64,000 nucleotides of DNA. Origin: Pseudohongiella sp. GTDB lineage: Bacteria; Pseudomonadota; Gammaproteobacteria; Pseudomonadales; Pseudohongiellaceae. The translations under genes and the position numbers were made by a program. Of this stretch, positions 47,392 through 62,692 are shown piece by piece. A model generated the notes under the pieces. It did no database searches, was not told the DNA's origin, and was given only the letters and a program-made list of their open reading frames with translations. Numbering within the stretch: position 1 is the stretch's first letter; every line of letters begins with the position of its first letter. Location: contig JAUSCD010000030.1 of the NCBI GenBank assembly GCA_030651695.1, positions 62,001-126,000 of the forward strand, read 5' to 3'.

Positions 47392-47895
47392 ATGCGTCGT
47401 ATATTTTTGGGTCTGGTTTCGTTCGCAGTGCTGGCCACCGGCGTGATAATGCTTCAGCGTGATGATGTCACTGCTGCTGAAGATCAGGCTCTGGCAGCGG
47501 TCAAGCGGCAGTTTGTTGGTCACTATGAACTGGTAAGCTTTGTTAACTTCCCCGCTGGTGGTGGCGAAGTCGATAATAATTACATTGGCCGCATCATGTA
47601 TGACGAGCATGACCAGATGTCGGCTCAGGGCATGCCCAAAGATCTGCCGGCACGTGCGGCCCAGAGTACAACAAACGTCAGTGGCGGTTTTGCTTACTGG
47701 GGGCCGGTGACCTGGGATATTTCGCAGAACAAGGTCACCCACCACGTTGAAGGTTCCCCCACCCGCGGCAGCTGGGTCGGAGAAGACAATGTACGTTATT
47801 ACGAATTTACCAGTGACGGATTGCTGAAACTGTCCATCCGTGACGACAATGGCCGCACCACCGGCACTTTGACGTGGAGACGAATCGGAGATTGA
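47392..47895 (+). CDS. Secreted lipocalin-like protein
   Basis: A 167-residue protein with an N-terminal hydrophobic segment (IFLGLVSFAVLATGVIML) and a beta-rich domain containing FVGHYELVSFVNFP, YIGRIMYDEHDQMSAQGM and the C-terminal TGTLTWRRI. This fits the lipocalin-like (Lipocalin_5) family of unknown ligand. AGGAGA precedes the ATG. The stop overlaps the acetate kinase start as TGATG, so it is the first gene of the acetate kinase-phosphoketolase transcript. Confidence 0.75.
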   Translation: MRRIFLGLVSFAVLATGVIMLQRDDVTAAEDQALAAVKRQFVGHYELVSFVNFPAGGGEVDNNYIGRIMYDEHDQMSAQGMPKDLPARAAQSTTNVSGGFAYWGPVTWDISQNKVTHHVEGSPTRGSWVGEDNVRYYEFTSDGLLKLSIRDDNGRTTGTLTWRRIGD

Positions 47896-49025
47896 TGGAA
47901 TATGTACTCGCCTGCAATGCAGGCAGCTCCTCACTCAAGCTCACCCTGTTTGCCGGAACTCCGGGGCAGGGTTGGGCTCCGTTAGAGACCACCAATCTGT
48001 CGGCCGGTTCGCACGTATCGGGTTCCCGCTCATATACGGACATGCTGTTCGGGTGGTTGGCGCCGCTGCCCACACCCGATCAGATTCTACACCGCGTGGT
48101 GCATTCAGGCCTGGTTAAAGAGCAGGCACGGTTACTGGACAACAGAACCGTTGACCTTATCCGGCATTGGCTGCCGATAGCTCCCCGTCATAATGCGTTG
48201 ACACTTGAGATGATAGGCTCAATGCAGCAACGCCTTCCCCACTTACCGCAATTTGCGATTTACGATTCAGGGCTTTACGCCGGTTTACCTGCGCATTCAG
48301 CGCGTTATGCTGTTTCTGATGAGCTGTCCCCGGGGTGGCCATTGCGCAGGTATGGATTTCACGGGCTTGCGCACAGAAATCAGTGGCGGCAAGTACAGGC
48401 TATGCAGAAACAGGCAGGGCGTCCATTGGGCAGGTGCATCAGCCTGCATCTGGGTAGCGGAGTCTCGGTCACCGCCTGGCGCGACGGCAATGTGATTGAT
48501 ACAAGTATGGGGTTTTCGCCGCTGGAGGGTTTGATTATGGCCCGGCGCAGTGGCAGTCTCGATCCTGGCATACTCCTGCATTTGCTTCTGCGGGAGGGTT
48601 TTGAGCCGGCCACGCTGGATATGGTGTTGCAAGAACGCAGCGGCCTTGCTGCTCTCGCCGGCCATGACGGAGATATGCGGTCAATTATGCAGGACATGCG
48701 GGCAGGTAACGATTCAGCCGCTGCAGCTGTGGATCAGTATTGTTATCAGATCCGAAAGACCATCGGCGCGTACATGGGTGCCCTCGGTGGAGTGGATGCG
48801 ATCAGTTTTGGTGGCGGTGTGGCAGAACATCAGGCGCCATTGCGGCAACAGATTGTGGATGGCCTGCAAGGCTTTGGCATTGTCGCAGACTCCGGGGCCA
48901 ATAGCGCGCGAGCTGGTGCCGGCGCTTTTCATGCGATGGACAGTGCATGTGCGCTGTATTTGACTCCGGTCAATGAAATGGACGAGATGCTCAGGCAATA
49001 TGAGGCCTTCGCACTCAATAAGTAA
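47895..49025 (+). CDS. ackA: Acetate kinase family enzyme, divergent
   Basis: A 376-residue ASKHA-fold kinase, slightly shorter than the usual ~400. CNAGSSSLKL, HRVVHSG, YGFHGLAHRNQ, HLGSGVSV and DTSMGFSPLEGLIMARRSG align with acetate kinase motifs, but several positions differ from the common forms (HLGNGAS, GLTPLEGL, TRSGD). ATG at 47895 is set by the TGATG overlap with the lipocalin-like gene. It is followed 21 bp later by the phosphoketolase-family gene, so it probably converts that enzyme's acetyl phosphate to acetate and ATP. Confidence 0.87.
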   Translation: MEYVLACNAGSSSLKLTLFAGTPGQGWAPLETTNLSAGSHVSGSRSYTDMLFGWLAPLPTPDQILHRVVHSGLVKEQARLLDNRTVDLIRHWLPIAPRHNALTLEMIGSMQQRLPHLPQFAIYDSGLYAGLPAHSARYAVSDELSPGWPLRRYGFHGLAHRNQWRQVQAMQKQAGRPLGRCISLHLGSGVSVTAWRDGNVIDTSMGFSPLEGLIMARRSGSLDPGILLHLLLREGFEPATLDMVLQERSGLAALAGHDGDMRSIMQDMRAGNDSAAAAVDQYCYQIRKTIGAYMGALGGVDAISFGGGVAEHQAPLRQQIVDGLQGFGIVADSGANSARAGAGAFHAMDSACALYLTPVNEMDEMLRQYEAFALNK

Positions 49026-49046
49026 TTTGATGTACTGGAGAAGGGC

Positions 49047-51407
49047 ATGATTTCCGAACAGCTGGACTGGGCACAGGGATATGGCGTCATCGAACATAAC
49101 GTGCAAACGCGGCAGCGTATGGATTCCTTGCTGGACACACTGGAAAAAGAAGGCATCTGCCCCCGTGACCAGGCGCAGGCCATGCTGGCGGCCGCTGACC
49201 GCCTGTGCAACATGGGGCTGTGGCTGACAGCACACATGACCTATGTCAAAAACGTGCACCTTGATGGCCGTGAGTTATTGGCCGATGATTTCAAATCTAC
49301 CCCGGAAGGTCACACCGGCGGCGCACTGAACATGGTGCCTGCATACGTCGGTTATCTGTTGGCAAACGCATTAACCGGCAGAACCCGCGCCTGGTTGATG
49401 GGGCAGGGTCACTGTGTGGCAGCCATCGACTCGGTCAACATACTGATGCGTAACCTGGAACCCGAACAGGATGCCCGCTACACCGTGACTGATGAAGGAT
49501 TGAGCCGCCTGTGTCAGGATTTTTACAGCTATCAGGTTAGCCCTGACGGAAAGCCCGCAGCCCCTTTGGGCAGTCATGTCAGCGTGTTCACTGCAGGCGG
49601 CGTCAGTGAGGGCGGGTATCTTGGGTTTACGGGTCTGCAGTACGTGCATATGCCATTGCCGGGTCAGGAACTGGTCACTTTCCTGAGTGACGGCGCTTTT
49701 GAAGAGCAGCGCGGCAGTGACTGGACACCACGCTGGTGGCGTGGTGAAGACAGTGGACTGGTGATGCCCATCATGATTGCCAACGGTCGTCGTATCGACC
49801 AGCGCACAACCATGTCTCAGGCCGGTGGTGTCACCTGGTTCCGCGAGCATCTTGAGTTAAATGGTTTTCTGCCAGTGGATATCGATGGACGAGATCCTGC
49901 AGCATTTGCCTGGGCCATTATCACCATGGCGCGTGATCTGCAGGAACAGCATCGCCAGATCACAGTGGGTGACCGCAGTTATCCTGTGCAATTACCCTAT
50001 GCCATTGCCGAAACTGTTAAAGGATTTGGTTTTCCCGGCGCAGGCACCAATGCCGCGCACAATCTGCCCTTGATTGGAAATCCGTCACAAGACGACAAAA
50101 TCCGCCAGATCTTCAATAAAGGCGCCGCACGTCTTTTTGTGGGGACGGAGGAGTTAAAGCGCTGTGTTCAGGTCCTGAGCAATCACAGCAAACCACAACG
50201 CATGCATGAAAAAGATCACTGGTTACGTCGCCTCCAGGTGTCGTTGCCAAAATTGCCGGCAATCGTTTATCAAAAACCGGGAGCGTCGGCATCGCCCATG
50301 CAACAGATTGACGAGTGGTTCTGCCAGTTAGCTGAGTTGAATCCCCGTCACCGGATTCGTATTGGTAATCCTGACGAAATCCGTAGTAACCGTATGAATA
50401 AAACCCTGGATACCCTGCGCCATCGCGTCACTGATCCTGAGTTGACGGTGGCGGAGTCGATCAATGGCGCGGTGATAACCGCGCTGAATGAAGAAGCTGT
50501 GGTCAGTGCTGCCCTGGCAAACAAACAAGGCATCAGTCTGGCAGTCAGTTACGAAGCCTTTGCCGTCAAGATGTTGGGCGCCATGCGCCAGGAAGTAATT
50601 TTTGCGCGTCACATGCGCGAAACCGGCCGCGCGGTGCACTGGCTGTCGGTACCGATTATCGCCAGCTCGCACACTTGGGAAAACGGCAAGAACGAAATCT
50701 CGCATCAAGATCCGACGCTCAGCGAAGCCTGGCTGGGTGAAATGTCAGACGTGGCGCCTGTGCTGTTCCCGTTTGACGGTAATTCGGCAGTCACCGTGAT
50801 GAGTTATTTGTATCGTCAGCGCGGTCGCGTTGCAGTAGTGGTATCACCGAAAGGCACTGTGCCAGTGATGACACAGCCCGAGCAAGCTGAGCAATCGGTG
50901 CGCGATGGTGCAGTTGTTCTTAGTCATGACCACAACGCGCGCGTGCAGTTTGTTGGCATGGGAGCGTATCAGATGGTATCCGTGCAGCGCGCCGCGCGCG
51001 TCTTGCGGGAGAAAGGCATCAGCTGCTCTGTGGTAGCTATGGTAGAGCCGGGTCGATTCCGGCTGCCGCGTGACGAGATGGAGGCAGCTTATGTGCATTC
51101 TGTTGAGCATATTGCTCAGTTGATTCCTTACGTGCGCAGCCGACTGTTTGTTTGCCACACCCATGCTGAAGTGATTACCGGCGTGCTGCGTCCACTGGAT
51201 ACCGGTGCGCGTGACAGTCGTTTTCTGGGTTATCGCAATCGAGGTGGCACGTTGGATGTGTTCGGGATGTTGTATGCGAATCAACAAACCTGGGCGCATC
51301 TGGTGTTGAATGCTACGCAGCTGCTGGATCTTGATGAGCAGCTTTACCTGAGTGCCGCGCAGCTGGCTGCTGTGAGTGGATCGGGAAATCCGGATGACTT
51401 GCGTTGA
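49047..51407 (+). CDS. Phosphoketolase-family TPP enzyme, divergent
   Basis: A 786-residue thiamine-diphosphate enzyme of the phosphoketolase (Xfp) superfamily, which splits xylulose 5-phosphate or fructose 6-phosphate with phosphate to acetyl phosphate and an aldose phosphate. GHTGGALNMVP (88-98) replaces the usual GHWGTTPG..N region. LSDGAFEEQRGSDWTPRWW replaces the usual GDGEAETG block for TPP/Mg binding. SHTWENGKNEISHQDPT matches the conserved SHxW..DHNGFSHQDPG region. Divergent members like this are sometimes labelled xylulose 5-phosphate 3-epimerase in databases. GGAGAAGGG precedes the ATG. Coupling to acetate kinase supports a phosphoketolase role. Confidence 0.8.
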   Translation: MISEQLDWAQGYGVIEHNVQTRQRMDSLLDTLEKEGICPRDQAQAMLAAADRLCNMGLWLTAHMTYVKNVHLDGRELLADDFKSTPEGHTGGALNMVPAYVGYLLANALTGRTRAWLMGQGHCVAAIDSVNILMRNLEPEQDARYTVTDEGLSRLCQDFYSYQVSPDGKPAAPLGSHVSVFTAGGVSEGGYLGFTGLQYVHMPLPGQELVTFLSDGAFEEQRGSDWTPRWWRGEDSGLVMPIMIANGRRIDQRTTMSQAGGVTWFREHLELNGFLPVDIDGRDPAAFAWAIITMARDLQEQHRQITVGDRSYPVQLPYAIAETVKGFGFPGAGTNAAHNLPLIGNPSQDDKIRQIFNKGAARLFVGTEELKRCVQVLSNHSKPQRMHEKDHWLRRLQVSLPKLPAIVYQKPGASASPMQQIDEWFCQLAELNPRHRIRIGNPDEIRSNRMNKTLDTLRHRVTDPELTVAESINGAVITALNEEAVVSAALANKQGISLAVSYEAFAVKMLGAMRQEVIFARHMRETGRAVHWLSVPIIASSHTWENGKNEISHQDPTLSEAWLGEMSDVAPVLFPFDGNSAVTVMSYLYRQRGRVAVVVSPKGTVPVMTQPEQAEQSVRDGAVVLSHDHNARVQFVGMGAYQMVSVQRAARVLREKGISCSVVAMVEPGRFRLPRDEMEAAYVHSVEHIAQLIPYVRSRLFVCHTHAEVITGVLRPLDTGARDSRFLGYRNRGGTLDVFGMLYANQQTWAHLVLNATQLLDLDEQLYLSAAQLAAVSGSGNPDDLR

Positions 51408-51472
51408 AATGGATTTCATCATGGCAGAAATACAGCGGACCTGCCGGGACGTACGATTACGATCCGGGAAAA

Positions 51473-52492
51473 CTAAGCCAGCCGCTCAAGAAAAGCAGCC
51501 AGCGCCACTTCCTCTGCTGTGAGCCCTTTGCGCGCCCTCGGCCTGGGTAGCCCGGATAAATCACCCAGGTTGTAGTGTTCCAGCACGGCCGGATGGATAT
51601 AACATTTGCGGCACACGGCGGGAGTATTACCCAGTTGGCGCGCGACGTCTTTGATCACCTCCACCACATGCCGCTTCGCCTCCGACTCCGGCTGCCATTC
51701 CAGCTCGCGCAATGCCGCCAGCGCCATCACGGTCGCAGCCCAGGTGCGAAAATCCTTTGCGGTGAAATCGGATCCGGTAATGCTGTGTAGATAGGCGTTA
51801 ACGTCGGAGGAGCTGATGCCATGGCGTTCTCCGTTTTCGTCCAGGTATTGGAACAGATCCTGCCCCGGTAACTCCTGGCAACGTCTGACCACCCGGGCTA
51901 GACGCCGGTCCTTCACTCCGACCTTGTGTTCGACCCCGCTCTTGCCGCGGAATTGAAACCGGATCTCGCTGCCTTTTATATCGACATGGCGATCCCTGAG
52001 CGTGGTCAGTCCGTAGGATCTATTCTCCTTCGCGTACCGGATATTGCCGACGCGAATCAACGTGGTATCCAGCAGCATCACCACCGTCGCCAGCACCTTT
52101 TCCCGGGTCAATCCCGGTTCGGCAATTTGTGCCTCCAGCTGTCTGCGCAGCTTTGGCAGGGCTTTGCCAAAAGCAGCCAGGTGTGAATACTTGCTGGTGT
52201 CGCGTACCTCTCGCCATCTTGGATGATAGCGGTACTGCTTGCGTCCGCGCGCGTCGCGGCCAGTGGCTTGCAGATGGCCGCGCGGGTCGGCGCAGATCCA
52301 GACATCGGTGTAGGCGGGCGGCACTGCGAGCGCATTGAGTCGATTGATCTCGTCGGGCTCAGTGATGCGTTCGCCCTTGGCATCATAATACCTGAACGTG
52401 CGCCCCACTTTTTTGCGGCGGATGCCGGGCTGGCAGTCATCGACATACTGCAAGTCGCGGGGCAGCTCTGCAGGCAATGCTGGTTCAGGCAT
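51473..52492 (-). CDS. DNA topoisomerase IB (poxvirus/eukaryotic type)
   Basis: A 339-residue type IB topoisomerase that relaxes supercoils through a 3'-phosphotyrosine. The N-terminal domain (GRTFRYYDAKGERITEPDEI) precedes the catalytic core with TLIRVGNIRYAKENRSYGL, QFRGKSG, KDFRTWAATVMAL and the active-site region AVCRKCYIHPAVLEHY, in which Y is the nucleophile. ATG at 52492 follows GGGGGA by 8 nt; ATG at 52522 is an alternative. Bacterial IB enzymes are accessory and often linked to stress or genome maintenance. Confidence 0.92.
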   Translation of the reverse strand: MPEPALPAELPRDLQYVDDCQPGIRRKKVGRTFRYYDAKGERITEPDEINRLNALAVPPAYTDVWICADPRGHLQATGRDARGRKQYRYHPRWREVRDTSKYSHLAAFGKALPKLRRQLEAQIAEPGLTREKVLATVVMLLDTTLIRVGNIRYAKENRSYGLTTLRDRHVDIKGSEIRFQFRGKSGVEHKVGVKDRRLARVVRRCQELPGQDLFQYLDENGERHGISSSDVNAYLHSITGSDFTAKDFRTWAATVMALAALRELEWQPESEAKRHVVEVIKDVARQLGNTPAVCRKCYIHPAVLEHYNLGDLSGLPRPRARKGLTAEEVALAAFLERLA

Positions 52493-52631
52493 TGACGTCG
52501 TCCCCCGGAGATATATAAGCAACTATAACAGCCATCTGCAGCATCAGGTCTATCCCGGGTTGCGCAAAGAGTTGAGCTCACTGATCGATATAGGTATCGT
52601 AAGGTACGTCTTAGCTGAAGAAGGTGCCGCA

Positions 52632-52844
52632 ATGATTAAAAAATTCAATGGAATATTGGTTCTCGTCCTTTTTCTGAGTGCTGCGGCTTGCAGCAACAAA
52701 GCCGTTTATATGAATGCACAGACCAATCTTCGCACTGAGTGTCACATGGGCCCGATGTCGCAGTATCAGGAGTGTATGGCGCGCACTAGCAGATCGTACG
52801 AAGAGTACTTGCGCGACCGCGAGGAGGCTCTGAGGAATCGATAG
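52632..52844 (+). CDS. Small lipoprotein of unknown function
   Basis: A 70-residue protein. The signal peptide (ILVLVLFLSAAACS) ends in a lipobox-like AAAC, so the mature part of about 50 residues would be lipid-anchored at Cys20. It contains two more cysteines (TECHMGPMSQYQECMART) and a charged helical tail. GAAGG lies upstream of the ATG. No family is recognised. Confidence 0.65.
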   Translation: MIKKFNGILVLVLFLSAAACSNKAVYMNAQTNLRTECHMGPMSQYQECMARTSRSYEEYLRDREEALRNR

Positions 52845-52874
52845 GCGGTTGGGATCGCAGCTGCGGTGTAATAC

Positions 52875-52912
52875 GGATTGATCCGGGGATAACGTCTGTC
52901 CCGGATCAATCC
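52875..52912. terminator. Perfect 13-bp hairpin between convergent genes
   Basis: GGATTGATCCGGG (52875-52887) pairs with CCCGGATCAATCC (52900-52912) around a 12-nt loop. It sits between the stops of the small lipoprotein and the ferritin-like gene and could stop transcription from both sides. No T-run flanks it, so it is not a canonical rho-independent terminator. Confidence 0.55.
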
Positions 52913-52923
52913 CCGACCACAGA

Positions 52924-53652
52924 TCAGATCAGATCTGTCACAGTTGCCTGTTTCAGCATTCCTTTGATCGTCGCCAGATGTTCATCTTCTTCAGTCAAGG
53001 CTCTGCTGAACTGCTCCGCGAGTTCATCCTGGCCTGCTCTTGTCGCCAGATCGATCAGCAGTTCCCAGCCAATATTGTCAGCGGCCTCCGCAATCAACAG
53101 AGCATTCATGGACTGTACAAGATTCGTGCGGGGATCAGCGATAATTTTTACGATACCTTCGGCAGATACTCCGGCCAGATTGGCGGAGGGCGTCTGCGCA
53201 GTCGGGTCTGCGCCGAGTTTTTCCAGCGCATCAACAAGTAATAGATAATGCTGGTGCTCCTCATCGCGGAATCGCTGGATGGTGGGCTGTATATCAACCA
53301 GTCCGGGTATGTGGCCGAGCGCCTCGACCTTCGCCAACATCGCATCATAGAGCCGGACGCCAGTGCGCTCAAACGCCAGTCGCTCAGCCATCTTGTCGAT
53401 CAGAATCTCCGGATTTTTTCCAAGGACTTTCTGGAAAGATGTTTTTATCATGCCTTTCACCGAGCCCGGCACCGGCACTGATCCTACCGGTGCCGCTTCT
53501 GAGATCGCCAGCATGCGTTCGCGCGCGATGGCGCCAGCGTCCCCGGGGATGTCTGGAGGGAACAGCTTATTGGCTTCCAGTTGCTCTTTGGTATCGTTTG
53601 GCGACATTTGTGCGCCGGTTTTGTTGTGGCCCATTTTGGCTGAGATAGTCAT
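52924..53652 (-). CDS. Ferritin-like diiron protein, smaller partner
   Basis: A 242-residue protein whose residues from about 80 on form a four-helix ferritin-like bundle. Probable metal ligands are E in LAFERTGVRLYDAML, EXXH in FRDEEHQHYLLL, E in LIAEAADNIGWELL and EXXH in LTEEDEHLATI. The N-terminal ~80 residues are polar and of unknown fold. Its ATG overlaps the stop of the larger ferritin-like gene (ATGA). A role in iron or peroxide handling is inferred from the fold. Confidence 0.78.
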   Translation of the reverse strand: MTISAKMGHNKTGAQMSPNDTKEQLEANKLFPPDIPGDAGAIARERMLAISEAAPVGSVPVPGSVKGMIKTSFQKVLGKNPEILIDKMAERLAFERTGVRLYDAMLAKVEALGHIPGLVDIQPTIQRFRDEEHQHYLLLVDALEKLGADPTAQTPSANLAGVSAEGIVKIIADPRTNLVQSMNALLIAEAADNIGWELLIDLATRAGQDELAEQFSRALTEEDEHLATIKGMLKQATVTDLI

Positions 53653-54833
53653 GACTGTTCACCTCTTGGTCGTGAATTGGCCTGCTCGGTTCCCGGATGC
53701 CATTTGTATCCGGCTGAGACTGTAGCGGAAGCGACCCCGTCTCCATTCATTTGTTCGCGATAGCGCAGGGACGCTTCGTTCTCGCGTTGTTTGGGAACAT
53801 ATTGGGTACCGGCAGTACGCAGATCCTTCTCTTCCGATAGCACCTTGCGAACAAACTCACGCTGGCTTTTGAACGCGATCATTTGTGGCACCGTGCCCGC
53901 AAGGATCTCTTCGGGGTCGCGGCGCTCGAGCTTCTTGAACCACTCGCGCGCCAGCGTCAACTGACCCAGTTCGTAATCAAGAAACTGCTCCCACATGGCT
54001 TTAACCCGGGGATTCTCTTCTTGTTCTGCGCAGCTGGCATACGCATAGACTTCCATGGCTTCATGAATCAGCCACTTCTCCACAAATGATTCCGAAGGAT
54101 CCATCAGTGATCCATACTGGGTGACATGCTGCTCTTCCACTGATGCGATCTCGGCATATAACTGTCGCGCAACCGGGTCGGTGAACGTGGGGCCAATATT
54201 CATGTAGTAGTCATGTGTCTGGTGTTCAGCTGCAGTTATCATGGCGGCATGCATTTTGGTAATCAGGGCTGCGTCAGCTTTCTGGTAGTTTTCCCGCAGA
54301 TCATCTTCCGGCGCACGATGATGCTCCGATGTAGGTCGGCCGGGAACGATATCTGTGTAGCCTTGCAGGATGTTGTTGGCGTCCTTTCCTTCCAGACGAT
54401 CAAGCATTGCAGCGTAACGGTACAAATGGTCAAAATCTTCCAGCAGACCAAAACGGTAAGTCTGGGCCTGATAGGGGTCCGGTTCTGTCTGGGCCACCGC
54501 AGCAGTAACTTCTATCGCAACCTGCTCATAAGCGATGGTGGTCTCCAGTGGTGAGTGGTCGGCGGACAGCAGCCAGTTAATTGACGTCATCTGATGCTGC
54601 TCTACGCGCCGGATCTGCGCCAAAGGCAGTTGTAACTCTTTATGAAACCGCGAACCAAAATGTTTAAGTCTCAAGGCATCTTGTTCTATTCCATTCATCA
54701 AGATGATGCGCACCCGAGTGAACGCATCATCGTCCAGCTTGCTGATAGGACGGCTTGATATCTGACGCCATGAGAACACCTGTTTCTCCAGGGGGTGGCC
54801 CTTGTTGTCGAATATACCTGATACTCCGTTCAT
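53649..54833 (-). CDS. Ferritin-like protein, larger partner, probably two bundles
   Basis: A 394-residue helical protein. Residues in MNGIEQDALRLKHFGSRFHK, RRVEQHQMTSINWLL and LLEDFDHLYRYAAML, then HAAMITAAEHQTHDYYMN, IASVEEQHVTQYGSLMD and HEAMEVYAYASCAEQEEN, show repeated E and EXXH patterns of ferritin-like diiron bundles; two may be present. ATG at 54833 is set by GGAGG at 54838-54842; an upstream GTG or ATG at 54887 lacks a site. It is translationally coupled to the smaller ferritin-like gene. Function unknown; stress protection is inferred. Confidence 0.7.
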   Translation of the reverse strand: MNGVSGIFDNKGHPLEKQVFSWRQISSRPISKLDDDAFTRVRIILMNGIEQDALRLKHFGSRFHKELQLPLAQIRRVEQHQMTSINWLLSADHSPLETTIAYEQVAIEVTAAVAQTEPDPYQAQTYRFGLLEDFDHLYRYAAMLDRLEGKDANNILQGYTDIVPGRPTSEHHRAPEDDLRENYQKADAALITKMHAAMITAAEHQTHDYYMNIGPTFTDPVARQLYAEIASVEEQHVTQYGSLMDPSESFVEKWLIHEAMEVYAYASCAEQEENPRVKAMWEQFLDYELGQLTLAREWFKKLERRDPEEILAGTVPQMIAFKSQREFVRKVLSEEKDLRTAGTQYVPKQRENEASLRYREQMNGDGVASATVSAGYKWHPGTEQANSRPRGEQS

Positions 54834-55045
54834 AACGCCTCCGTAGGAAAGATGTCTGATTATTGCCGCGTGCTCCAGCGGTGACACCAGATTGCAATGG
54901 CAAAAGAAGGTGTAGTTTTAGGACTCAGCCGTTTTGGAAAAGTTTGTCGGGCTGCGAGGCTTGTTACATGGTTGCATTCAACACCCAAGTCTGGCTGAAT
55001 GGTTTACTCGCTCAGATAACTGATATGCAAGGTAATGTTTAAAGT

Positions 55046-56569
55046 ATGAAAGCGGTAACAACAAAAAGTTTTCTATATCTGACCCGGCTCGGCATAGACA
55101 CGCATCAGGAACCAGTGCTCTACATGCGCGAAGATTGCCATGTTTGCCGCTCGGAGGGCTTTGATGCTCAGGGTCGTGTGCAGATCATGTGCGGTGACCG
55201 TTCCGTTATTGCCACGCTCAATATTGTCAAAGGTGATTTGCTCAGTCACCAGAAAGCCGGGCTGAGTGAATCCGCGTGGAGATTGCTGAATGCAAGCGAA
55301 GGTGAAAAGGCATTTTTCCGCCACGCCCCGCCAGTAGAATCCATGAGTCATGTGCGCGGCAAACTTTATGGCAAGCCTCTGACAGCTGCCGGCGCTCACG
55401 AGATCATTGAAGACATCAGCCGCGGCCACTATTCGGATATCCAGCTATCCTCCTACGTCACTGCCTGCGCTGCAAACAATCTGAGCATTGAAGAAACCAT
55501 CCATGTCACCCGCGCCATGGTGGAAGCCGGGCGTCGTTTTGACTGGGGTGATGGTCGTATCATCGTCGACAAACACTGCGTAGGCGGACTGCCGGGCAAC
55601 CGCACCACGCCTATTGTTGTGGCAATTGTTGCCGCCAATGGTCTGGTCATGCCCAAGACTTCATCGCGCGCCATCACCTCTCCCGCCGGCACTGCTGACA
55701 CCATGGAAACACTGACAGAAGTGAATCTGGGTTTTGATCGTATGCGCGCGGTAGTTGAAAAAGAAGGCGCCTGCCTGGCCTGGGGCGGCGCGGTTGCTTT
55801 AAGTCCTACAGATGACATTATCATCCGTGTGGAGCGCGCACTGGATCTGGACAGCGAAGGGCAACTGGTGGCTTCGGTGATCTCCAAGAAAGTGGCAGCA
55901 GGTTCCACCCATGTGTTGATTGATATCCCGGTGGGTCCAACGGCGAAGGTCCGGAGCCCTGAATTGGCGGCGCAGTTGGCTGCAGCGCTTACCGACGCAG
56001 GAAGCGCGATGGGATTGACCATAAAAACGCTGATCAGTGACGGCAGCCAGCCGGTCGGGTTTGGCATCGGACCAGCGCTCGAAGCTCATGATGTGCTGGC
56101 GGTTTTGCAGAATGATAAAAAAGCGCCGCGAGATCTTCGCCAACGTGCGTTGACACTGGCCGCAGCCATGCTGGAAATGGGGCAGGCCTGTCAAGCGAGG
56201 GAAGGTCTGGAGCTGGCAACCCGCACGTTGGATAGCGGCCTGGCCTGGCAAAAATTCCAGGCCATCTGCGCGGCGCAAGGTGGGCTGCGCGAACCACCTC
56301 GTGCCGAATACGTCCACACCATCAAAGCTGAACGCCATGGTGTTGTTGCCATGTTGAACAATCGTGTGATTTCGCGGCTGGCCACGCTGGCCGGCGCACC
56401 CAATGCCAAAGCTGCAGGTGTCTGCATGCATGTGCGTCTTGGCGATGTGGTTGAGCCGGGGCAAGCGCTCATCAGTGTTCATTCAGAGGCACTGGGGGAG
56501 CTGGAATACGCGCTCGACTTTTACCATTCGCACCCGCAGATTCTGCTAATTGAGGAAGAAGTGGTATGA
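55046..56569 (+). CDS. Thymidine phosphorylase-family / AMP phosphorylase-like enzyme
   Basis: A 507-residue nucleoside or nucleotide phosphorylase. An N-terminal ~80-residue extension precedes the pyrimidine phosphorylase core with HVRGKLYGKPLTAAGAHEII, DKHCVGGLPGNRTTPIVVAI, and TSPAGTADTMETL, then the C-terminal domain ending in hexapeptide-like beta strands. The length and N-extension match the archaeal AMP phosphorylase type, which splits NMP with phosphate to base plus ribose 1,5-bisphosphate, rather than the ~440-residue DeoA. The stop overlaps the PRPP synthetase start (ATGA), supporting a role in nucleotide-ribose flux. Confidence 0.85.
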   Translation: MKAVTTKSFLYLTRLGIDTHQEPVLYMREDCHVCRSEGFDAQGRVQIMCGDRSVIATLNIVKGDLLSHQKAGLSESAWRLLNASEGEKAFFRHAPPVESMSHVRGKLYGKPLTAAGAHEIIEDISRGHYSDIQLSSYVTACAANNLSIEETIHVTRAMVEAGRRFDWGDGRIIVDKHCVGGLPGNRTTPIVVAIVAANGLVMPKTSSRAITSPAGTADTMETLTEVNLGFDRMRAVVEKEGACLAWGGAVALSPTDDIIIRVERALDLDSEGQLVASVISKKVAAGSTHVLIDIPVGPTAKVRSPELAAQLAAALTDAGSAMGLTIKTLISDGSQPVGFGIGPALEAHDVLAVLQNDKKAPRDLRQRALTLAAAMLEMGQACQAREGLELATRTLDSGLAWQKFQAICAAQGGLREPPRAEYVHTIKAERHGVVAMLNNRVISRLATLAGAPNAKAAGVCMHVRLGDVVEPGQALISVHSEALGELEYALDFYHSHPQILLIEEEVV

Positions 56570-57471
56570 GTATTCTGATGTTCAGTATGCCAGGCCAGGA
56601 ACAGCTGGCGCAGAACCTGTTGCAACGAACCGGATGGTTGGCCGGAAATATGATCCTGCGACATTTTCCCGATGGCGAAACTTATATCCGGGTGCTGGAC
56701 GATGTAAAAGGGCGCGAGGTCGTAATTTTGTGCCAGCTGCATCAGCCTGACAGCAACGTGCTGCCGTTATTGTTGTTGGCTGATACCCTGCATGATCTTG
56801 GTGCCACCAAGGTCGGGCTTATTGCGCCGTATCTCGCTTATATGCGCCAGGACAAACGATTCAACGAGGGCGAAGGTGTCAGTTCGCACTATTTTGCGAA
56901 ATTGATCAGCCGGCACCTGGACTGGCTGGTTACTGTTGATCCTCACCTTCACCGTATTCATCGGCTGGATGAGGTCTACAGTATCCCGGCCACTTCGCTT
57001 ACTGCCGTAAAGCCAATTGCGGAATGGATCAGGCAACATATCGACAGACCGTTGGTCATAGGTCCGGACAGCGAATCCGAGCAGTGGGCTGCACGTGTTG
57101 CAGAGGCCGTAGGATGCCCTTGGGAAGTGCTGCAGAAAGAACGTTTTGGCGACAGGGATGTACGCATCTCATTGCCGCATGTTGAAAACTATCCCGATCG
57201 CACCCCCGTTCTCGTTGATGACATTATCAGCACAGGTAAAACCATGATGCTTGCTGCGCAGCATCTGCGTGCGGCGGGCATGGCCGCGCCGGTGTGTGTG
57301 GCAGTCCACGGTATTTTCGCCGCCGGGGCTCTGCAGGAGATGCAGGCTCAGGGGTTGACGGTGGTTACCTGCAACTCAATTCCAGATGACAGTAATCAGA
57401 TTGATCTGGCTGAGCTGTTGGCCACGGGCACAATTCCCCGTGTTGAAGGCCAATCCCCGTCTCCAGAATAG
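56566..57471 (+). CDS. Ribose-phosphate pyrophosphokinase, archaeal-like type
   Basis: A 301-residue PRPP synthetase-family protein, shorter than the housekeeping bacterial Prs (~315). PYLAYMRQDKRFNEGEGVS, VDPHLHRIHRLDEVY and the PRPP loop VLVDDIISTGKTM are present. The VDPHLHR form resembles archaeal enzymes instead of VDLHADQIQGFF. It is coupled to the phosphorylase by ATGA, so it is probably a dedicated paralogue rather than the main Prs. It might make or consume PRPP in nucleotide salvage. The 264 bp after it (57472-57735) show no gene. Confidence 0.87.
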   Translation: MSILMFSMPGQEQLAQNLLQRTGWLAGNMILRHFPDGETYIRVLDDVKGREVVILCQLHQPDSNVLPLLLLADTLHDLGATKVGLIAPYLAYMRQDKRFNEGEGVSSHYFAKLISRHLDWLVTVDPHLHRIHRLDEVYSIPATSLTAVKPIAEWIRQHIDRPLVIGPDSESEQWAARVAEAVGCPWEVLQKERFGDRDVRISLPHVENYPDRTPVLVDDIISTGKTMMLAAQHLRAAGMAAPVCVAVHGIFAAGALQEMQAQGLTVVTCNSIPDDSNQIDLAELLATGTIPRVEGQSPSPE

Positions 57472-57735
57472 TGTGAACCCCCGGTTGATACGATGCGCCT
57501 GGTGAACTACAGTTTCTGCCCGGCTGGAAAATATGAGCTAACTTGCCACAGATACCGGTCTTGAAAGAGAAGAGCAGTATCCGACGGTTTGTGGTCAGCG
57601 CACCTCAGGTGAAATAAGTTACTAATTCTATTGTGTTTATGGGGCGTCAGTGGATGGGCGCCATGACATTGTCTGACGTGGCCGGAATTGCCCGTTCATT
57701 CTTTATTCCTGTTTTAAAACAAACGGAGAACGATC

Positions 57736-58299
57736 ATGACAAGCAGCCAGAGCGACATCAAAGTTAGGGAAGCGATTGGGGTTTTTTTCGATAGAGAGCA
57801 TCTCGAGGAGGCTATAAAGGATCTGAAGAATTCCGGCTTTGAGCATGACCAGCTCGGTTTGCTGGCGAGTGAACAGGTTGTTCAAAAATCACTTGGCGAT
57901 ATCTATACCAGAACCAATGATCACGATGATGACTCCAAAGGACCAGCAATGGCTTTTGCCCGTAAGGAAGCGGGCGGGGACAACTTCTGGTCCTTTAACG
58001 GAGGTTTGTTTTTTGCCGGCTCAACTGCTGCCATGGGGGCAGTTGTGGCATCTGCGGCAGTATTCGGTGGCGCGCTACTGGTTGCGGCAGCCAGCGTGGT
58101 GGGTGTAGGGACTGTTGGCGCAGTGGCTGCCAACCTGATCAGCAAAAGTGATGCGGAGTCTCTTGCTGAGCAGGTTGATCAGGGCCATTTATTGTTGTTC
58201 GTCAGGGTGAACGATTTGGACGAGGAAGCCTCTGCAGTAAGGATTCTCTCCCGGCATGCCGGGTTTGATGCCAAAGTCTACGAAGTCCCTGTCAAATGA
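57736..58299 (+). CDS. Glycine-zipper membrane protein, stress-protein-like
   Basis: A 187-residue protein. The N-terminal part (EAIGVFFDREHLEEAIKDL, then FEHDQLGLLAS) resembles the general stress protein 17M/DUF1269-type ferredoxin-like fold. A central Gly/Ala-rich hydrophobic segment of about 45 residues (92-136) is a glycine zipper or double membrane span. The C-terminal LLLFVRVND...ILSRHAGFDAKVYEV repeats the alpha-beta pattern. GGAG precedes the ATG. The gene lies between the PRPP synthetase and the nuclease; function unknown. Confidence 0.7.
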   Translation: MTSSQSDIKVREAIGVFFDREHLEEAIKDLKNSGFEHDQLGLLASEQVVQKSLGDIYTRTNDHDDDSKGPAMAFARKEAGGDNFWSFNGGLFFAGSTAAMGAVVASAAVFGGALLVAAASVVGVGTVGAVAANLISKSDAESLAEQVDQGHLLLFVRVNDLDEEASAVRILSRHAGFDAKVYEVPVK

Positions 58300-58309
58300 G
58301 TCGGAACAA

Positions 58310-59713
58310 CTAAAACGAAATTGAGCGGCCATACGCCGGGATATCGCTTCGTATGGCTTTGTCTGTCCATAACTTCTGAGACAACGCTTCCAGTGCGTTG
58401 ACTTCGCCGTGTACGAGACACAAGCGCGGTTTATTTTCAAAGTTTGAGGCCCAATGGATCAATGCAGTCTGTCCCGCGTGGGCAGATAGCCCGCCGATGG
58501 TCTCGATGCGTGCGCGCACGCGGAATTCGTCACCGAACATTTTGATTTCTTTTTTGCCATCAACCAGCAAGCGGCCAAGGGTGCCCTGTGCCTGGAAACC
58601 GATAAAAATGACGGTATTGTTTTCGCGCCAGATACGATGTTTGAAGTGGTGACGGATACGCCCACCGGTGCACATGCCGCTGCCGGCGATGATAATTGCA
58701 CCTTGTTTGATTTTGTTTATTTCCATCGACTCTTCAGCACTGCGGCACAGTTTTAAAGTGGGCAAAAACTTTTGCAGTGATTCTCTGCCCGAGTCTGTGA
58801 GGCAGCGAATATCCTCGTCGTCCATGATGTGCAGCCAGCGGTCGTAAACTTCGGTGACTTCAATGGCCATGGGGCTGTCCAGAAAAATCTGCCAGTCATC
58901 AAGTTCGCCGGCGTGATACAGACAGCCAAGATGGAAGATCATTTCCTGTGAGCGGCCAATTGCAAATGCCGGGATCATCACATTGCCGCCACGTTCCCAG
59001 GTTTCATGCAACACGGTTCGAAGTTCTTCAATAGTGGCGTCATGCGGGCGGTGATCGCGATCCCCGTAAGTGCCTTCCATCAACACAATATCAGCCTTGG
59101 TTGGGGTTTCTGCGTCATTCATCAGAGCCGAGTCGTTGTTGCCAAGGTCGCCTGAGAACACCAACACTTTTTCTTCACCTTTATCTGTCAGGGTCAGTTC
59201 TACAATGGCTGAGCCGAGAATATGGCCGGCATCCATAAAACGTACATTAGCGGATGGTCCGATAGAAAAAGACACGTGGTAGGGTTTGGGATCACACTGT
59301 CGCAACACCTTCTCAACATCGCGCGCTGTGTATTCCGCTTCAATCAGGTCGCGACCGCTACGCTGGCGGCGCAGGTTCTCGCGCTCCAGATCGCGTTCGT
59401 ACAGTCCCCAGGCGTCCTCAAGCAGAATGCGCAGCAGCTGATGGGTTGCTTGTGTGCAGTAAATCGGACCTTCGAAGCCGCGATTTACAAGTTTGGGCAA
59501 CATGCCAGAGTGATCAAGATGGCCGTGTGAAAGTACCACCGCATCAATGCTGATCGGCTCAAACGGGAAGGCATCGTCACCGACACGGTCAACAGCATCG
59601 CCGCCTTGTTGCATGCCGCAGTCAAGCAGCACGCGCCCCAATGCGGGAGACTCCACCATGTGGCAGGAGCCGGTGACTTCCTGTGCCGCGCCGTAAAATG
59701 TGATTGTTGCCAT
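58310..59713 (-). CDS. Beta-CASP metallo-beta-lactamase RNA-processing exonuclease
   Basis: A 467-residue zinc nuclease of the CPSF/Int9-11 type. The metal motif is SHGHLDHSG (H63, H65, D67, H68), with DAGHILGSA, VFSGDLGN, MEGTYGDRDH (motif A), a beta-CASP insert with GSGMCTGGRIRHHFKHRI (motif B) and CLVHGEVNAL (motif C). Such proteins cleave RNA as endo- or 5' exonucleases. It converges on the glycine-zipper gene. In this cluster it could supply nucleotides from RNA for the phosphorylase, which is inference. AGGAAT precedes the ATG. Confidence 0.92.
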   Translation of the reverse strand: MATITFYGAAQEVTGSCHMVESPALGRVLLDCGMQQGGDAVDRVGDDAFPFEPISIDAVVLSHGHLDHSGMLPKLVNRGFEGPIYCTQATHQLLRILLEDAWGLYERDLERENLRRQRSGRDLIEAEYTARDVEKVLRQCDPKPYHVSFSIGPSANVRFMDAGHILGSAIVELTLTDKGEEKVLVFSGDLGNNDSALMNDAETPTKADIVLMEGTYGDRDHRPHDATIEELRTVLHETWERGGNVMIPAFAIGRSQEMIFHLGCLYHAGELDDWQIFLDSPMAIEVTEVYDRWLHIMDDEDIRCLTDSGRESLQKFLPTLKLCRSAEESMEINKIKQGAIIIAGSGMCTGGRIRHHFKHRIWRENNTVIFIGFQAQGTLGRLLVDGKKEIKMFGDEFRVRARIETIGGLSAHAGQTALIHWASNFENKPRLCLVHGEVNALEALSQKLWTDKAIRSDIPAYGRSISF

Positions 59714-59849
59714 CAGATTCCTACTCCCTTGATAAACCAGTGCATGCTTTTTGCGGTGATAGCCGAGTCTATCCCAATGAGCGTGCAGGCGTCAGGCGCA
59801 ATCAGCTAGAATGCCGAAGTGTTTGATATGAAACAAACAGGGGAATTAG

Positions 59850-61295
59850 TTGCCAGCACACAACACAGAACATAAGAGGCCGCCGCTCAGACACGGTTTC
59901 AGTGATCGCTGGCTGGCTGAATCAGTTCGCTTACAACTGCCGCGTGCGGGCAAGACACCTGAATCGTTCTCCGGGCAGCAGATATCGAGTGCAGAAAGTC
60001 TTGCGCGCGCCTACGACGGCGGCCCTGAAGCGCGGGTACTACGCTGGGCTTCACTGCTGGCTGTGCACACAGATCTGGTGCAGGCCATGCATAGCTGGCG
60101 TCAACGCGCCGGTGTTGTATTGGCATTGATGTTGGTGCTGGCGTTTGCCGGCGGGCTTTCTGCAGCGCTCGGCGTGATGGGCCGCGGCAATGAACCGGTG
60201 AATGTGCTGTGGGCGCTTGGTGCCCTGCTGGGTGTGAATCTGCTGATGCTTCTTGTCTGGCTGTTGAGTCTGGGTGCAGCGCCGGGCGCCTTGTCTGCCG
60301 GCCGTCTGTGGCTTTGGCTGAGTGCACGGTTTTATGGTCGTGAGGCACTCACGCTGGCGCAGTCATTTTCGGGTCTGAGCCAGCGCGTTGGGGCAACACG
60401 CTGGTGGATGGCAGGCATTACCCATAGTGTCTGGTCATCTGCCCTGGCTGGCGCTCTGGCAGGTTTGTTGATTGCCTTGTCGCTGCGTAGTTATGCTTTT
60501 GTGTGGGAAACTACAATCCTGCCGGCAGCGCTTTTTACCTCGTTGGTGCAATCTCTGGCGTGGTTGCCCTCGCTTATTGGATTCCCTATGCCGGAGGAGA
60601 ACACCATTCGCCTGGCTGGTTTGATTGGCAGTGACGCCGTATTGCAGACCGATGAACAGCGCCGGGCATGGGCCGGCTGGTTATGCGGCGCGGTGCTGGT
60701 CTACGGGCTGCTGCCGCGCCTGATATTGCTGGGGCTCAGCGCCTGGCGTTTATCCCGCAGCCTTGCCCGTGTGCGGCTGGATCTGCACAGCGCAGATTGG
60801 TCTGCCCTGAGTCAACGGCTGTCTCCTGCCAGCCAGTCTTTGGGCGTCACTGATCCGGCGCCTGATTTACCTGTCACTTCAAGGCAGAAGCGAGGTTCAG
60901 GCATCGCCGGCCACGCCGAGTCCGTGGTGGTGGGGTTTGAGCTCGATGATCAGATCAGCTGGCCGCCTGTTTTCGGTGAAAGCGCGATTAAAGCAAGATA
61001 CGAGCAAGTAATGTCGCGTCAGCAAAGGACATTGGTGTTGCAGCAGCTTGATCAGTCGCCACCGCGAGCTTTGTTACTGGTCTGTGACTCCGCTCAGACG
61101 GTGGACAGGGGTTCGCTGGCATGGCTCGGTGAGGCCTCTGGACGTGTGCTGCATGTTGCCGTCTGGCTGGCAGGCAAGGGCACGGAAAACAGGCGCGCCG
61201 TCTGGCGCCAGCAATTGCAGACTCTGGGATTGTTGGAAAACGCTGTGTTTGACACCGAGTCTGATGCCCGCCAATGGCTGGAGGCACACTCATGA
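59850..61295 (+). CDS. DUF2868-type membrane protein
   Basis: A 481-residue protein starting at TTG with four or more membrane spans: pairs at about 90-145, and again near 200-230 and 270-300. An N-terminal SAESLARAYDGGPEARVLRWASLLA region is typical of the DUF2868 family. The C-terminal part (LLVCDSAQTVDRGSLAWLGE) looks like a soluble alpha/beta domain. Its stop overlaps the GTPase start (ATGA), and the DUF2868/DUF3482-GTPase pair is a conserved arrangement in Pseudomonas relatives. Function unknown. Confidence 0.78.
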   Translation: MPAHNTEHKRPPLRHGFSDRWLAESVRLQLPRAGKTPESFSGQQISSAESLARAYDGGPEARVLRWASLLAVHTDLVQAMHSWRQRAGVVLALMLVLAFAGGLSAALGVMGRGNEPVNVLWALGALLGVNLLMLLVWLLSLGAAPGALSAGRLWLWLSARFYGREALTLAQSFSGLSQRVGATRWWMAGITHSVWSSALAGALAGLLIALSLRSYAFVWETTILPAALFTSLVQSLAWLPSLIGFPMPEENTIRLAGLIGSDAVLQTDEQRRAWAGWLCGAVLVYGLLPRLILLGLSAWRLSRSLARVRLDLHSADWSALSQRLSPASQSLGVTDPAPDLPVTSRQKRGSGIAGHAESVVVGFELDDQISWPPVFGESAIKARYEQVMSRQQRTLVLQQLDQSPPRALLLVCDSAQTVDRGSLAWLGEASGRVLHVAVWLAGKGTENRRAVWRQQLQTLGLLENAVFDTESDARQWLEAHS

Positions 61296-62692
61296 TTTCC
61301 AAGCCTCTGCACATCACAGTGGCGGGTCACACTAACACCGGCAAAACTTCATTGCTGCGCACATTGACACGTGATGCCCGCTTTGGCGAGGTCAGTGATC
61401 GCCCCGGCACCACGCGTCATGTGGAGGCCGCGCGTTTGTTGGTTGATGGCAAGGTTCTGCTGGAGCTGTATGATACCCCGGGTATCGAGGAGTCCATTGA
61501 TCTGCTGGCCTTGCTGGAAGAGCAGGCGGCAAGCAATGATTCCCGTGAAGATGGCCCATCGCGTATTCGCCGCTTTCTGGATTCTGCACCTGCCAAAGAC
61601 CGCTTTGAGCAGGAGGCCAAAGTATTGCGGCAGCTATTGCGTAGTGATGCCGCTTTTTATGTGCTCGACGCACGCGATCCGGTGTTAGCCAAGCATCGTG
61701 ACGAGCTCGAAATACTGCGTCTGTGTGGTGTGCCATTGCTGCCTCTGCTCAATTTCAGCGCGGATCCTGCTGCACGCGAAACTGTCTGGCGCGAAGCGCT
61801 GGCGGGTTTGGGTCTGCATGCCATCGTGCGATTTGATACGGTGGCCCCCGCTGAGGACGGTGAGCGGTTACTGTACGAAAAGCTCGCCAGTCTGCTGGAT
61901 CCTCACCGGGACCTGCTGAACAAACTGATCCAGAACCACGCCGAAGAAGCGCGGCTGCGACAGTTGGCGGCGATGGAGCAGATTGCAGACTTGCTGATTG
62001 GCGTCGCAGCGTTGCGCGAACGCGTCAGCACCATGAATGCCGACTCACTTGAGAAAGGTGTTGAGCTGCTTAACCGAACAGTGCGCGCCCGGGAGCAGGC
62101 GTGTGTGGAGCGTTTACTCAGCCTTTACCGGTTTTACCCTGATGATGTGGAAACGGCCGCGCTGCCTCTGGTTGACGGCCGCTGGCAAATGGATGCGTTT
62201 GATCCCTTGTTGCTGCAGACCATGGGTGTTCGTGTAGGTGGCGGTGCAGCGGCAGGGGCAGCCGCCGGCGCGGGCATCGATCTGATGGTTGGCGGCCTGA
62301 CTTTAGGCGCCGCCGCTGCAATTGGCGCATTGCTGGGCGGCGGGCTGCAAACACTCCGGCACTATGGCAGCGGCCTTTTGGGTAAGCTGACCGGCGAAAA
62401 AAGTCTGCGTGTTGATGACAGCATCCTGCTGGTGCTGGCATCGCGCCAGTGTGAGTTGATTCTGGCGCTGGAGCGACGCGGTCACGCCGCCCAGCAGCGG
62501 GCAGTGTCCTCCAGGGAGCTGCTCCCGCTGTTTCCCGAGAATGTACTGCCTGCTGCAATCCGTCTTGCACGTGCAAACCCATCGTGGGCGCAGGATAAGT
62601 CAGCGTCATTTGGTGACGAGGGGCGGGAGGATGCGGTGGTGACGCTCAGTCACGACCTCGACACCGGCATGAGCACTTTACGTCAGCGCTAA
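61292..62692 (+). CDS. GTPase with DUF3482 C-terminal domain
   Basis: A 466-residue protein. The N-terminal Era/TrmE-like GTPase domain has the P-loop GHTNTGKT (12-19), GTTR as switch I and LYDTPG as G3; the G4 position is degenerate (LNFS instead of NKXD). The C-terminal half contains a long glycine-zipper membrane segment (GGGAAAGAAAGAGIDLMVGG) at about 318-360. ATG at 61292 overlaps the DUF2868 stop; an upstream ATG at 61274 is less likely. The pair may act on the inner membrane; role unknown. Confidence 0.85.
   Translation: MISKPLHITVAGHTNTGKTSLLRTLTRDARFGEVSDRPGTTRHVEAARLLVDGKVLLELYDTPGIEESIDLLALLEEQAASNDSREDGPSRIRRFLDSAPAKDRFEQEAKVLRQLLRSDAAFYVLDARDPVLAKHRDELEILRLCGVPLLPLLNFSADPAARETVWREALAGLGLHAIVRFDTVAPAEDGERLLYEKLASLLDPHRDLLNKLIQNHAEEARLRQLAAMEQIADLLIGVAALRERVSTMNADSLEKGVELLNRTVRAREQACVERLLSLYRFYPDDVETAALPLVDGRWQMDAFDPLLLQTMGVRVGGGAAAGAAAGAGIDLMVGGLTLGAAAAIGALLGGGLQTLRHYGSGLLGKLTGEKSLRVDDSILLVLASRQCELILALERRGHAAQQRAVSSRELLPLFPENVLPAAIRLARANPSWAQDKSASFGDEGREDAVVTLSHDLDTGMSTLRQR

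Follow-up and report, generated by a model that had tools for sequence, protein, structure and literature searches.

Gene content of the locus

The window analysed here is the whole 64,000-nucleotide stretch of DNA from Pseudohongiella sp. (contig JAUSCD010000030.1, positions 62,001 to 126,000), and this work deals with five genes in its segment 47392-59713, which code for a beta-CASP RNase (casp), an AMP, or nucleoside monophosphate (NMP), phosphorylase-like enzyme (ampP), a paralogue of phosphoribosyl pyrophosphate (PRPP) synthetase (prs), a divergent phosphoketolase-like thiamine diphosphate (ThDP) enzyme (XFP-like, gene xfp) and an acetate kinase (ack). Genes are numbered by window positions, and the open reading frames (ORFs) were checked with Pfam and NCBIfam profiles and with PDB matches. 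The ten genes that a first-pass annotation, made from the letters alone, had named within these 12 kb were all found where it had placed them:

47392-47895, +, lipocalin-like protein (PF13924, 37.7 bits); an upstream neighbour, module membership not claimed
47895-49025 (ORF from GTG 47874), +, acetate kinase (PF00871, 247 bits; PDB 4ijn, 213 bits)
49047-51407, +, divergent phosphoketolase-like ThDP enzyme, XFP-like (PF03894, 134 bits; PF09364, 46 bits)
51473-52522, -, topoisomerase IB (PF01028, 139 bits); an insertion, outside the module
52924-53652, -, weakly ferritin-like protein (24.0 bits against a cut-off of 24.5); an insertion, outside the module
53649-54887, -, unassigned ORF, earlier called ferritin-like (no Pfam family at E 0.001); outside the module
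55046-56569, +, AMP (NMP) phosphorylase-like enzyme, ampP (NF003338, 658 bits; TIGR02645, 569 bits)
56566-57471, +, PRPP-synthetase paralogue with an altered PDxGG loop, prs (NF005537, 393 bits; PDB 1u9y, 153 bits)
57736-58299, +, glycine-rich stress-type protein, called glycine-zipper (sub-threshold YflT match, E 0.0087); an insertion, outside the module
58310-59713, -, beta-CASP RNase of the TTHA0252 type, casp (PF10996, PF07521, PF00753; TTHA0252, 300 bits)

The identities of the topoisomerase IB and of the beta-CASP RNase are clear, and the two couplings that had been noticed are borne out, as 21 bp separate the acetate kinase gene from the phosphoketolase-like gene and the ampP and prs genes overlap by 4 bp. 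The ATG of the acetate kinase at 47895 also overlaps the stop of the lipocalin-like gene by one base. The naming of two ferritin-like proteins did not stand, since one falls just under the cut-off and the other, whose ORF overlaps the first on the same strand, has no Pfam match; the glycine-zipper stress-type label is weak. A same-genus genome has a corresponding 16-kb locus (L179) with the order lip-xfp-ampP-prs, followed by casp on the opposite strand, and no topoisomerase IB, ferritin-like, unassigned or glycine-zipper gene is present there. None of these genes had a match in 100 related loci (L062-L161) or in L179-L182 either, and their inclusion in the module, as first proposed, has to be dropped; they are most simply explained as insertions in the lineage of the window. 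The xfp-ampP junction, which is contiguous in the same-genus genome, is split in the window at 51473-54887 by the minus-strand topoisomerase IB and the overlapping pair. Beyond the RNase, genes for DUF2868 and DUF3482/GTPase proteins adjoin the module at 59850-62692.

Conservation and re-coupling of five genes

Public genomes were queried with the phosphoketolase-like family alone, so that the choice of loci did not depend on the partner genes. An XFP-like relative is encoded in at least 559 candidate stretches, of which the best 80, most like that of the window, were analysed. These 80 are not independent, as 18 of them are Lysobacterales by their titles, the islands L154-L156 are near-identical, and L117 and L124 belong to a single assembly. 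Neighbours were counted in the 58 loci that extend 7 kb or more to each side of the XFP-like gene, where ampP and prs were each found near it in 40, casp in 43 and ack in 36, all four in 25 and none in 8; in a stricter count that drops overlapping frames the figures were 39, 37, 42, 36, 20 and 8, respectively. When these genes are same-strand neighbours in the 80 loci they lie within 20 bp of each other in 39 of 39 cases for ampP-prs, 24 of 24 for casp-ampP, 19 of 20 for prs-xfp, 11 of 11 for xfp-ampP and 11 of 13 for ack-xfp. Across L062-L161 there are 18 kinds of tight run (gaps of 60 bp or less), and at least six of the orders are mutually incompatible, with casp-ampP-prs-xfp in 17 loci and ack-xfp-ampP-prs in 7, and with ampP-prs-casp-xfp, ack-xfp-casp-ampP, ampP-ack-xfp-prs and ampP-prs-xfp-casp in one locus each; plasmids of Ciceribacter and Novosphingobium carry prs-xfp-casp-ampP. 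Genes that are coupled again and again in varied orders point more strongly to a shared function than genes kept in one fixed order. Neighbourhood conservation, which the first-pass annotation had named as a check, thus holds for the five genes. The link is real for them, although it is narrower than first proposed, and for these five the observation is stronger than the earlier reader could know. In L090 (Halopseudomonas) and in L099 and L104 (Alcanivorax) the XFP-like gene stands by a P-type ATPase-family gene and a beta-CASP RNase, and the phosphorylase is absent. A single 954-residue frame joining RNase and phosphorylase (L068:8515-11379) was set aside as evidence because of an ambiguous base at the junction and 25 N in the locus; fusion and assembly uncertainty cannot be told apart there.

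One explanation for such clustering would be island accretion alone, that is, that the genes were merely gathered in mobile metal and stress islands. Fifteen plasmid records carry an XFP-like gene and 10 of them are predicted to be conjugative, insertion sequence (IS) elements and metal genes surround some of the plasmid loci, and unrelated genes have been inserted in the window itself. However, the same genes are coupled in the incompatible orders given above, on plasmids as well, and the lipocalin-like gene, found in two of the 100 loci (L082 and L094) and in the same-genus locus, belongs to a chromosomal-looking context of m24, dinB, tesB and lipocalin genes common to these three. We consider it quite improbable that accretion alone accounts for the module. 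Among the matches listed (25 of 114), an ampP match was found in at least 13 of the 15 plasmid records and 11 lie within 2 kb of the XFP-like gene.

At the level of whole genomes, co-occurrence was examined by Fisher tests that ignore relatedness. In the order-level sample of 56 genomes, 8 had the XFP-like gene, 17 had ampP and 7 had both, so that ampP was present in 7 of 8 genomes with the XFP-like gene and in 10 of 48 without it (p 0.0006, kinship ignored). In the class-level sample of 274 genomes, with ampP counted at E 1e-100 or better, the figures were 8, 59 and 5, that is, 5 of 8 against 54 of 266 (p 0.013, kinship likewise ignored). The half made up of the XFP-like enzyme and acetate kinase and the half with ampP can occur separately.

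Altered enzymes and the fate of ribose 1,5-bisphosphate

The phosphoketolase-like protein scores above the Pfam gathering cut-offs for XFP (134 bits, cut-off 22) and XFP_N (46 bits, cut-off 23.7) and falls far below the NCBIfam phosphoketolase models, the best score being 135 bits against 962 for that model and the lowest cut-off of any phosphoketolase model being 777. Searched with a profile built from 8 relatives, PDB phosphoketolases score 120-150 bits along almost the entire length, and the AlphaFold model (pLDDT 88.6) gives TM scores of 0.73-0.80 to phosphoketolases compared to 0.56-0.63 to the transketolases listed. In an alignment of 88 members and 17 canonical sequences, from which the canonical phosphoketolase of L072 had been removed (originally 89 rows), identity among the members was 59% on average (minimum 46) and to the canonical sequences 21% on average (maximum 25). 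Residues were mapped through alignment to 8io6_A and the joint alignment. In PMC6435721, H97, H142 and G155 are assigned to dehydration, H64, Y501 and N549 to phosphate binding, and H553 is the proton donor. H64, H97, H142, G155, H320, S440, N549 and H553 are kept in 88 of 88 members (H97 lies inside the search pattern and is partly kept by construction) and E479 and Y501 in 87, with one gap and one ambiguous residue. Of the 13 pocket residues of Bifidobacterium phosphoketolase listed in PMC10547157, 10 are kept in 87-88 members and Q546, H548 and Q321 are replaced in all 88, Q546 by N and H548 by K in every member and Q321 by N (82) or G (6). The positions of Y217 and K218 hold Arg in 88 of 88 members, that of P222 holds Arg (87) or Lys (1), and R442 is relaxed. 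Because the chemistry residues are kept and the positions of Q546, H548, Y217 and K218 are changed, the acetyl-phosphate-forming side of the active site is predicted to be intact and the substrate side to be altered. Compared to the XFP phosphoketolases of known structure (3ahc, 3ai7, 8io6 and 6gua), the family has the same predicted fold and the same acetyl-phosphate chemistry residues, but it differs in its low identity, in a loop 546-549 that reads N-x-K-N and not QDHN, and in the two Arg residues; judged by its residues, the enzyme is probably not a standard phosphoketolase. In 14 of the 15 plasmid records (H1, H3-H15) the XFP-like gene is annotated as xylulose 5-phosphate 3-epimerase and in one as phosphoketolase, and the former label is a probable misannotation given the predicted phosphoketolase fold. 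One genome of the class-level sample (G004) has the RNase, prs and ampP trio with a canonical phosphoketolase and an acetate kinase paired about 11 kb away, which suggests that a canonical enzyme can fill the place of the XFP-like one.

The ampP protein reaches the family models NF003338 and TIGR02645 with the scores listed above, and among PDB entries it matches 4ga5 at 328 bits versus 144 for pyrimidine nucleoside phosphorylase. The entry 4ga5, listed as a putative thymidine phosphorylase, is one that we take to be the AMP phosphorylase of T. kodakarensis. Its TSSRAITSxAGTAD loop is kept, 15 of 16 loop positions being conserved in 60-61 of 61 sequences. In the acetate kinase, N15, R74, H163 and R225, presumably the catalytic residues, are kept in 42 of 42 cluster members. 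The motif Glu at position 318 of the window protein is replaced by His in 14 of the 42, possibly a functional split. In the RNase, which has beta-CASP and RMMBL domains, the HxHxDH motif and the further H/D residues of the metal-ligand motifs are kept in 60 of 60 sequences. Its nearest solved structure by sequence is the RNase TTHA0252, with which it shares the metal-ligand motifs; it differs in an 18-residue stretch after residue 106 that is missing from TTHA0252 in the alignment, and in its operon context. A link of the RNase to Cas14 of type VII CRISPR was rejected (NF045584, 376 against a cut-off of 800), and so was a defence system, as there was no PADLOC match for four proteins.

The PRPP-synthetase paralogue scores above its family models (TIGR01251, 198 against 113; NF005537, 393 against 322), and its predicted structure (pLDDT 92.5) has the PRPP-synthetase fold. 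The solved structure nearest by sequence is the M. jannaschii enzyme 1u9y (153 bits), and like this archaeal-type enzyme the paralogue has the RQD, K-x-R and DD..S/T motifs, with RQD, K191 and R193 kept in 57 of 57 paralogues. It differs in that the PDxG(G/A) loop, which presumably contacts the diphosphate and metal, is lost in 57 of 57 and is replaced by GPDxESxQW, with a Glu at the Gly position and E170, S171 and W174 in all 57. A further difference is that Arg, His or Lys takes the place of the second Gly of the TGGT motif in 47 of 57. The same loop reads VSPDIGGVVRAR in the other, canonical PRPP synthetase of the genome of the window; the canonical loop is also found in L176, L177 and L178, and three PDB chains have PDxG(G/A). 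Of 10 genomes with ampP, 9 encode a canonical PRPP synthetase as well as the paralogue; the tenth, G016, showed the module type alone.

AMP phosphorylase produces ribose 1,5-bisphosphate, which in archaea is passed on by ribose 1,5-bisphosphate (R15P) isomerase and type III RuBisCO. Of 41 XFP-like genomes searched, 33 lacked a RuBisCO match, including the genome of the window, as the first-pass annotation had supposed for this locus. An archaeal-type R15P isomerase above the TIGR00511 cut-off was found in none of the 274 genomes, that of the window (G000) included; lower-scoring matches in 170 of them are taken to be MtnA-like, and in 6 of 13 genomes, including G007 and G065 (88% complete), which carry XFP-like, ampP and prs genes, there was no match to the IF-2B family at all. 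PhnN, considered as another consumer, was above its cut-off in 3 of 26 genomes, that of the window not among them, and was rejected. Compared to archaeal NMP degradation, in which nucleotide ribose is a carbon and energy source, the predicted pathway would have the same first enzyme and the same first product, but in place of RuBisCO and R15P isomerase the genome of the window has the phosphoketolase-like enzyme and acetate kinase. With RuBisCO unmatched there and neither R15P isomerase nor PhnN scoring above its cut-off, the bisphosphate must be consumed in some other way, and the best candidate is the prs paralogue, whose gene is the one coupled most closely to that of the phosphorylase. The step from ribose 1,5-bisphosphate to xylulose 5-phosphate, which had been noted as missing here, may in part be supplied by the module itself, if this altered paralogue acts as predicted.

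Could the XFP-like enzyme instead act directly on a pentose bisphosphate, for example ribulose 1,5-bisphosphate made by some isomerase, with the C1 phosphate leaving instead of water? The uniform replacements at Q546 and H548, the basic residues at Y217, K218 and P222, and the linkage to a presumed source of ribose 1,5-bisphosphate would fit such a substrate. This is very improbable, however, as an R15P isomerase above cut-off is absent from the 274 genomes and the IF-2B family is unmatched in two bearers of the XFP-like gene, which also occurs in genomes without ampP, and the model is poor in the loop 249-259, where R253 lies.

A predicted route from RNA to ATP

We propose, with a probability of about one half, that this conserved and sometimes plasmid-borne module takes the ribose of RNA nucleotides to acetyl phosphate for energy when respiration is limited. 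The beta-CASP RNase would degrade RNA to 5'-NMPs, and the phosphorylase would use phosphate to split NMP into base and ribose 1,5-bisphosphate. The prs paralogue would then pass the anomeric phosphate of the bisphosphate to AMP or ADP and leave ribose 5-phosphate, a role that we propose by analogy, and regard by itself as possible but doubtful, with the model being the reverse PRPP-synthetase reaction, in which the diphosphate of PRPP is passed to AMP. Housekeeping isomerase and epimerase would give xylulose 5-phosphate, the XFP-like enzyme would use phosphate to convert a ketose phosphate to acetyl phosphate (with glyceraldehyde 3-phosphate if the substrate is xylulose 5-phosphate), and acetate kinase would yield ATP. 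All six reactions are inferred, above all the phosphotransfer and the exact substrate of the XFP-like enzyme. The first-pass annotation had offered a similar route from RNA to ATP; the coupling of the five genes and the lack of a RuBisCO match in the genome speak for it, the grouping with ferritin, topoisomerase and glycine-zipper proteins is lost, the phosphoketolase is probably a non-standard one, and the reading is plausible with its chemistry predicted. Type II glyceraldehyde-3-phosphate dehydrogenase (GAPDH), which would take the glyceraldehyde 3-phosphate, is encoded in 6 of 100 loci and in 2 of 4 plasmid regions examined. Genes for this archaeal-type GAPDH lie near the module at L154:13590-14645 (-), L172:1920-2960 and L174:18783-19826, and the L154 protein scores 448 bits with NF003251.

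Published data on low oxygen point the same way. In PMC6515984, B. diazoefficiens at 0.5% oxygen induced bll3115 (MBL fold hydrolase), bll3116 (ribose-phosphate pyrophosphokinase), bll3117 (thymidine phosphorylase family) and bll2518 (phosphoketolase family) by 15.4-, 7.7-, 5.1- and 8.2-fold, respectively, in transcript and by 2.9, 4.4, 2.1 and 4.3 log2 units in protein, and none of them is marked as a direct FixK2 target in its Table 2. These genes were equated with those of the module from their names and the run of locus tags, not by sequence, and with this limit the low-oxygen induction that had been suggested as a check has been published for the trio of RNase, synthetase and phosphorylase. 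The main text of two Burkholderia low-oxygen papers (PMC9104464 and PMC6127331) does not name phosphoketolase, phosphorylase or acetate kinase, nor thymidine, xylulose or ribose-phosphate, and in PMC3759415 the terms sought turn up just twice, as acetate kinase in an unrelated passage and as a BCAM02 locus tag.

Several observations weigh against the pathway from RNA to ATP. The ampP protein is under the TIGR03327 equivalog cut-off (463 versus 535 bits), and the acetate kinase, though above that of PF00871, is under the cut-off of TIGR00016 (232 versus 293 bits). Acetate kinase was near the XFP-like gene in just the 36 of 58 loci counted above, with none found in the 16-kb locus of the same genus, and 8 of the 58 loci had none of the four partners. 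Out of 27 XFP-like genomes without ampP in the retrieved flank, 9 have it elsewhere and 18 nowhere, and these 18 count against an obligate link; ampP is also frequent without the XFP-like gene (the 54 of 266 class-level genomes), some genomes such as G242 additionally have a relative of the canonical phosphoketolase type, and bll2518 may be of that type too. P-type ATPases recur in 41 of 100 loci and isoprenylcysteine methyltransferase (ICMT) in 24, from which it follows that island accretion contributes. FNR-like boxes are weakly enriched, with one mismatch or less at 8 of 90 cluster starts where 2.3 are expected, and in the window a single-mismatch site at 59823 lies 5' of the RNase gene and the divergent next gene and none lies upstream of the other module genes; FNR/Anr boxes were dropped as an argument for regulation since the enrichment is too weak.

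Alternatively, the module could be two independent stress functions that travel together, in which case the RNase, ampP and prs trio would trim the adenylate pool and recycle bases with PRPP and the XFP-like enzyme and acetate kinase would use ordinary pentose phosphates, the two sharing islands and perhaps regulation but no intermediate. Each half is found without the other, the islands gather not only P-type ATPases and ICMT but DUF3141 and cyclopropane synthase genes as well, and the paralogue, with K191, R193 and RQD in place, could still make PRPP. We regard this as possible but doubtful, because the halves overlap or abut in several orders, as seen in the prs-xfp and xfp-ampP spacings, and because 9 of the 10 genomes have a canonical PRPP synthetase anyway and all 57 paralogues have lost the PDxGG loop.

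No description of the module was found among the titles and abstract openings listed from a collection of open-access papers, with subscription papers outside the scope. Relatives of ampP are as common as 59 of 274 class-level genomes, and none of the 274 has an R15P isomerase above cut-off; for the fate of the phosphorylase product there the module offers a concrete answer that can be assayed, and two altered enzyme subfamilies, the XFP-like one and the prs paralogue, have been identified. The fullest version, that this is a RuBisCO-free bacterial nucleotide catabolism in which a new phosphoketolase subfamily works together with a new phosphotransferase, derived from PRPP synthetase, that phosphorylates AMP or ADP at the expense of the anomeric phosphate of ribose 1,5-bisphosphate, we hold to be rather unlikely as a whole. 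On that reading the breakdown of AMP would itself regenerate ADP or ATP, and respiring bacteria that run short of oxygen could obtain ATP from their own RNA. If the proposed pathway is true, the module would be a portable emergency energy pathway that joins RNA turnover to substrate-level ATP synthesis.

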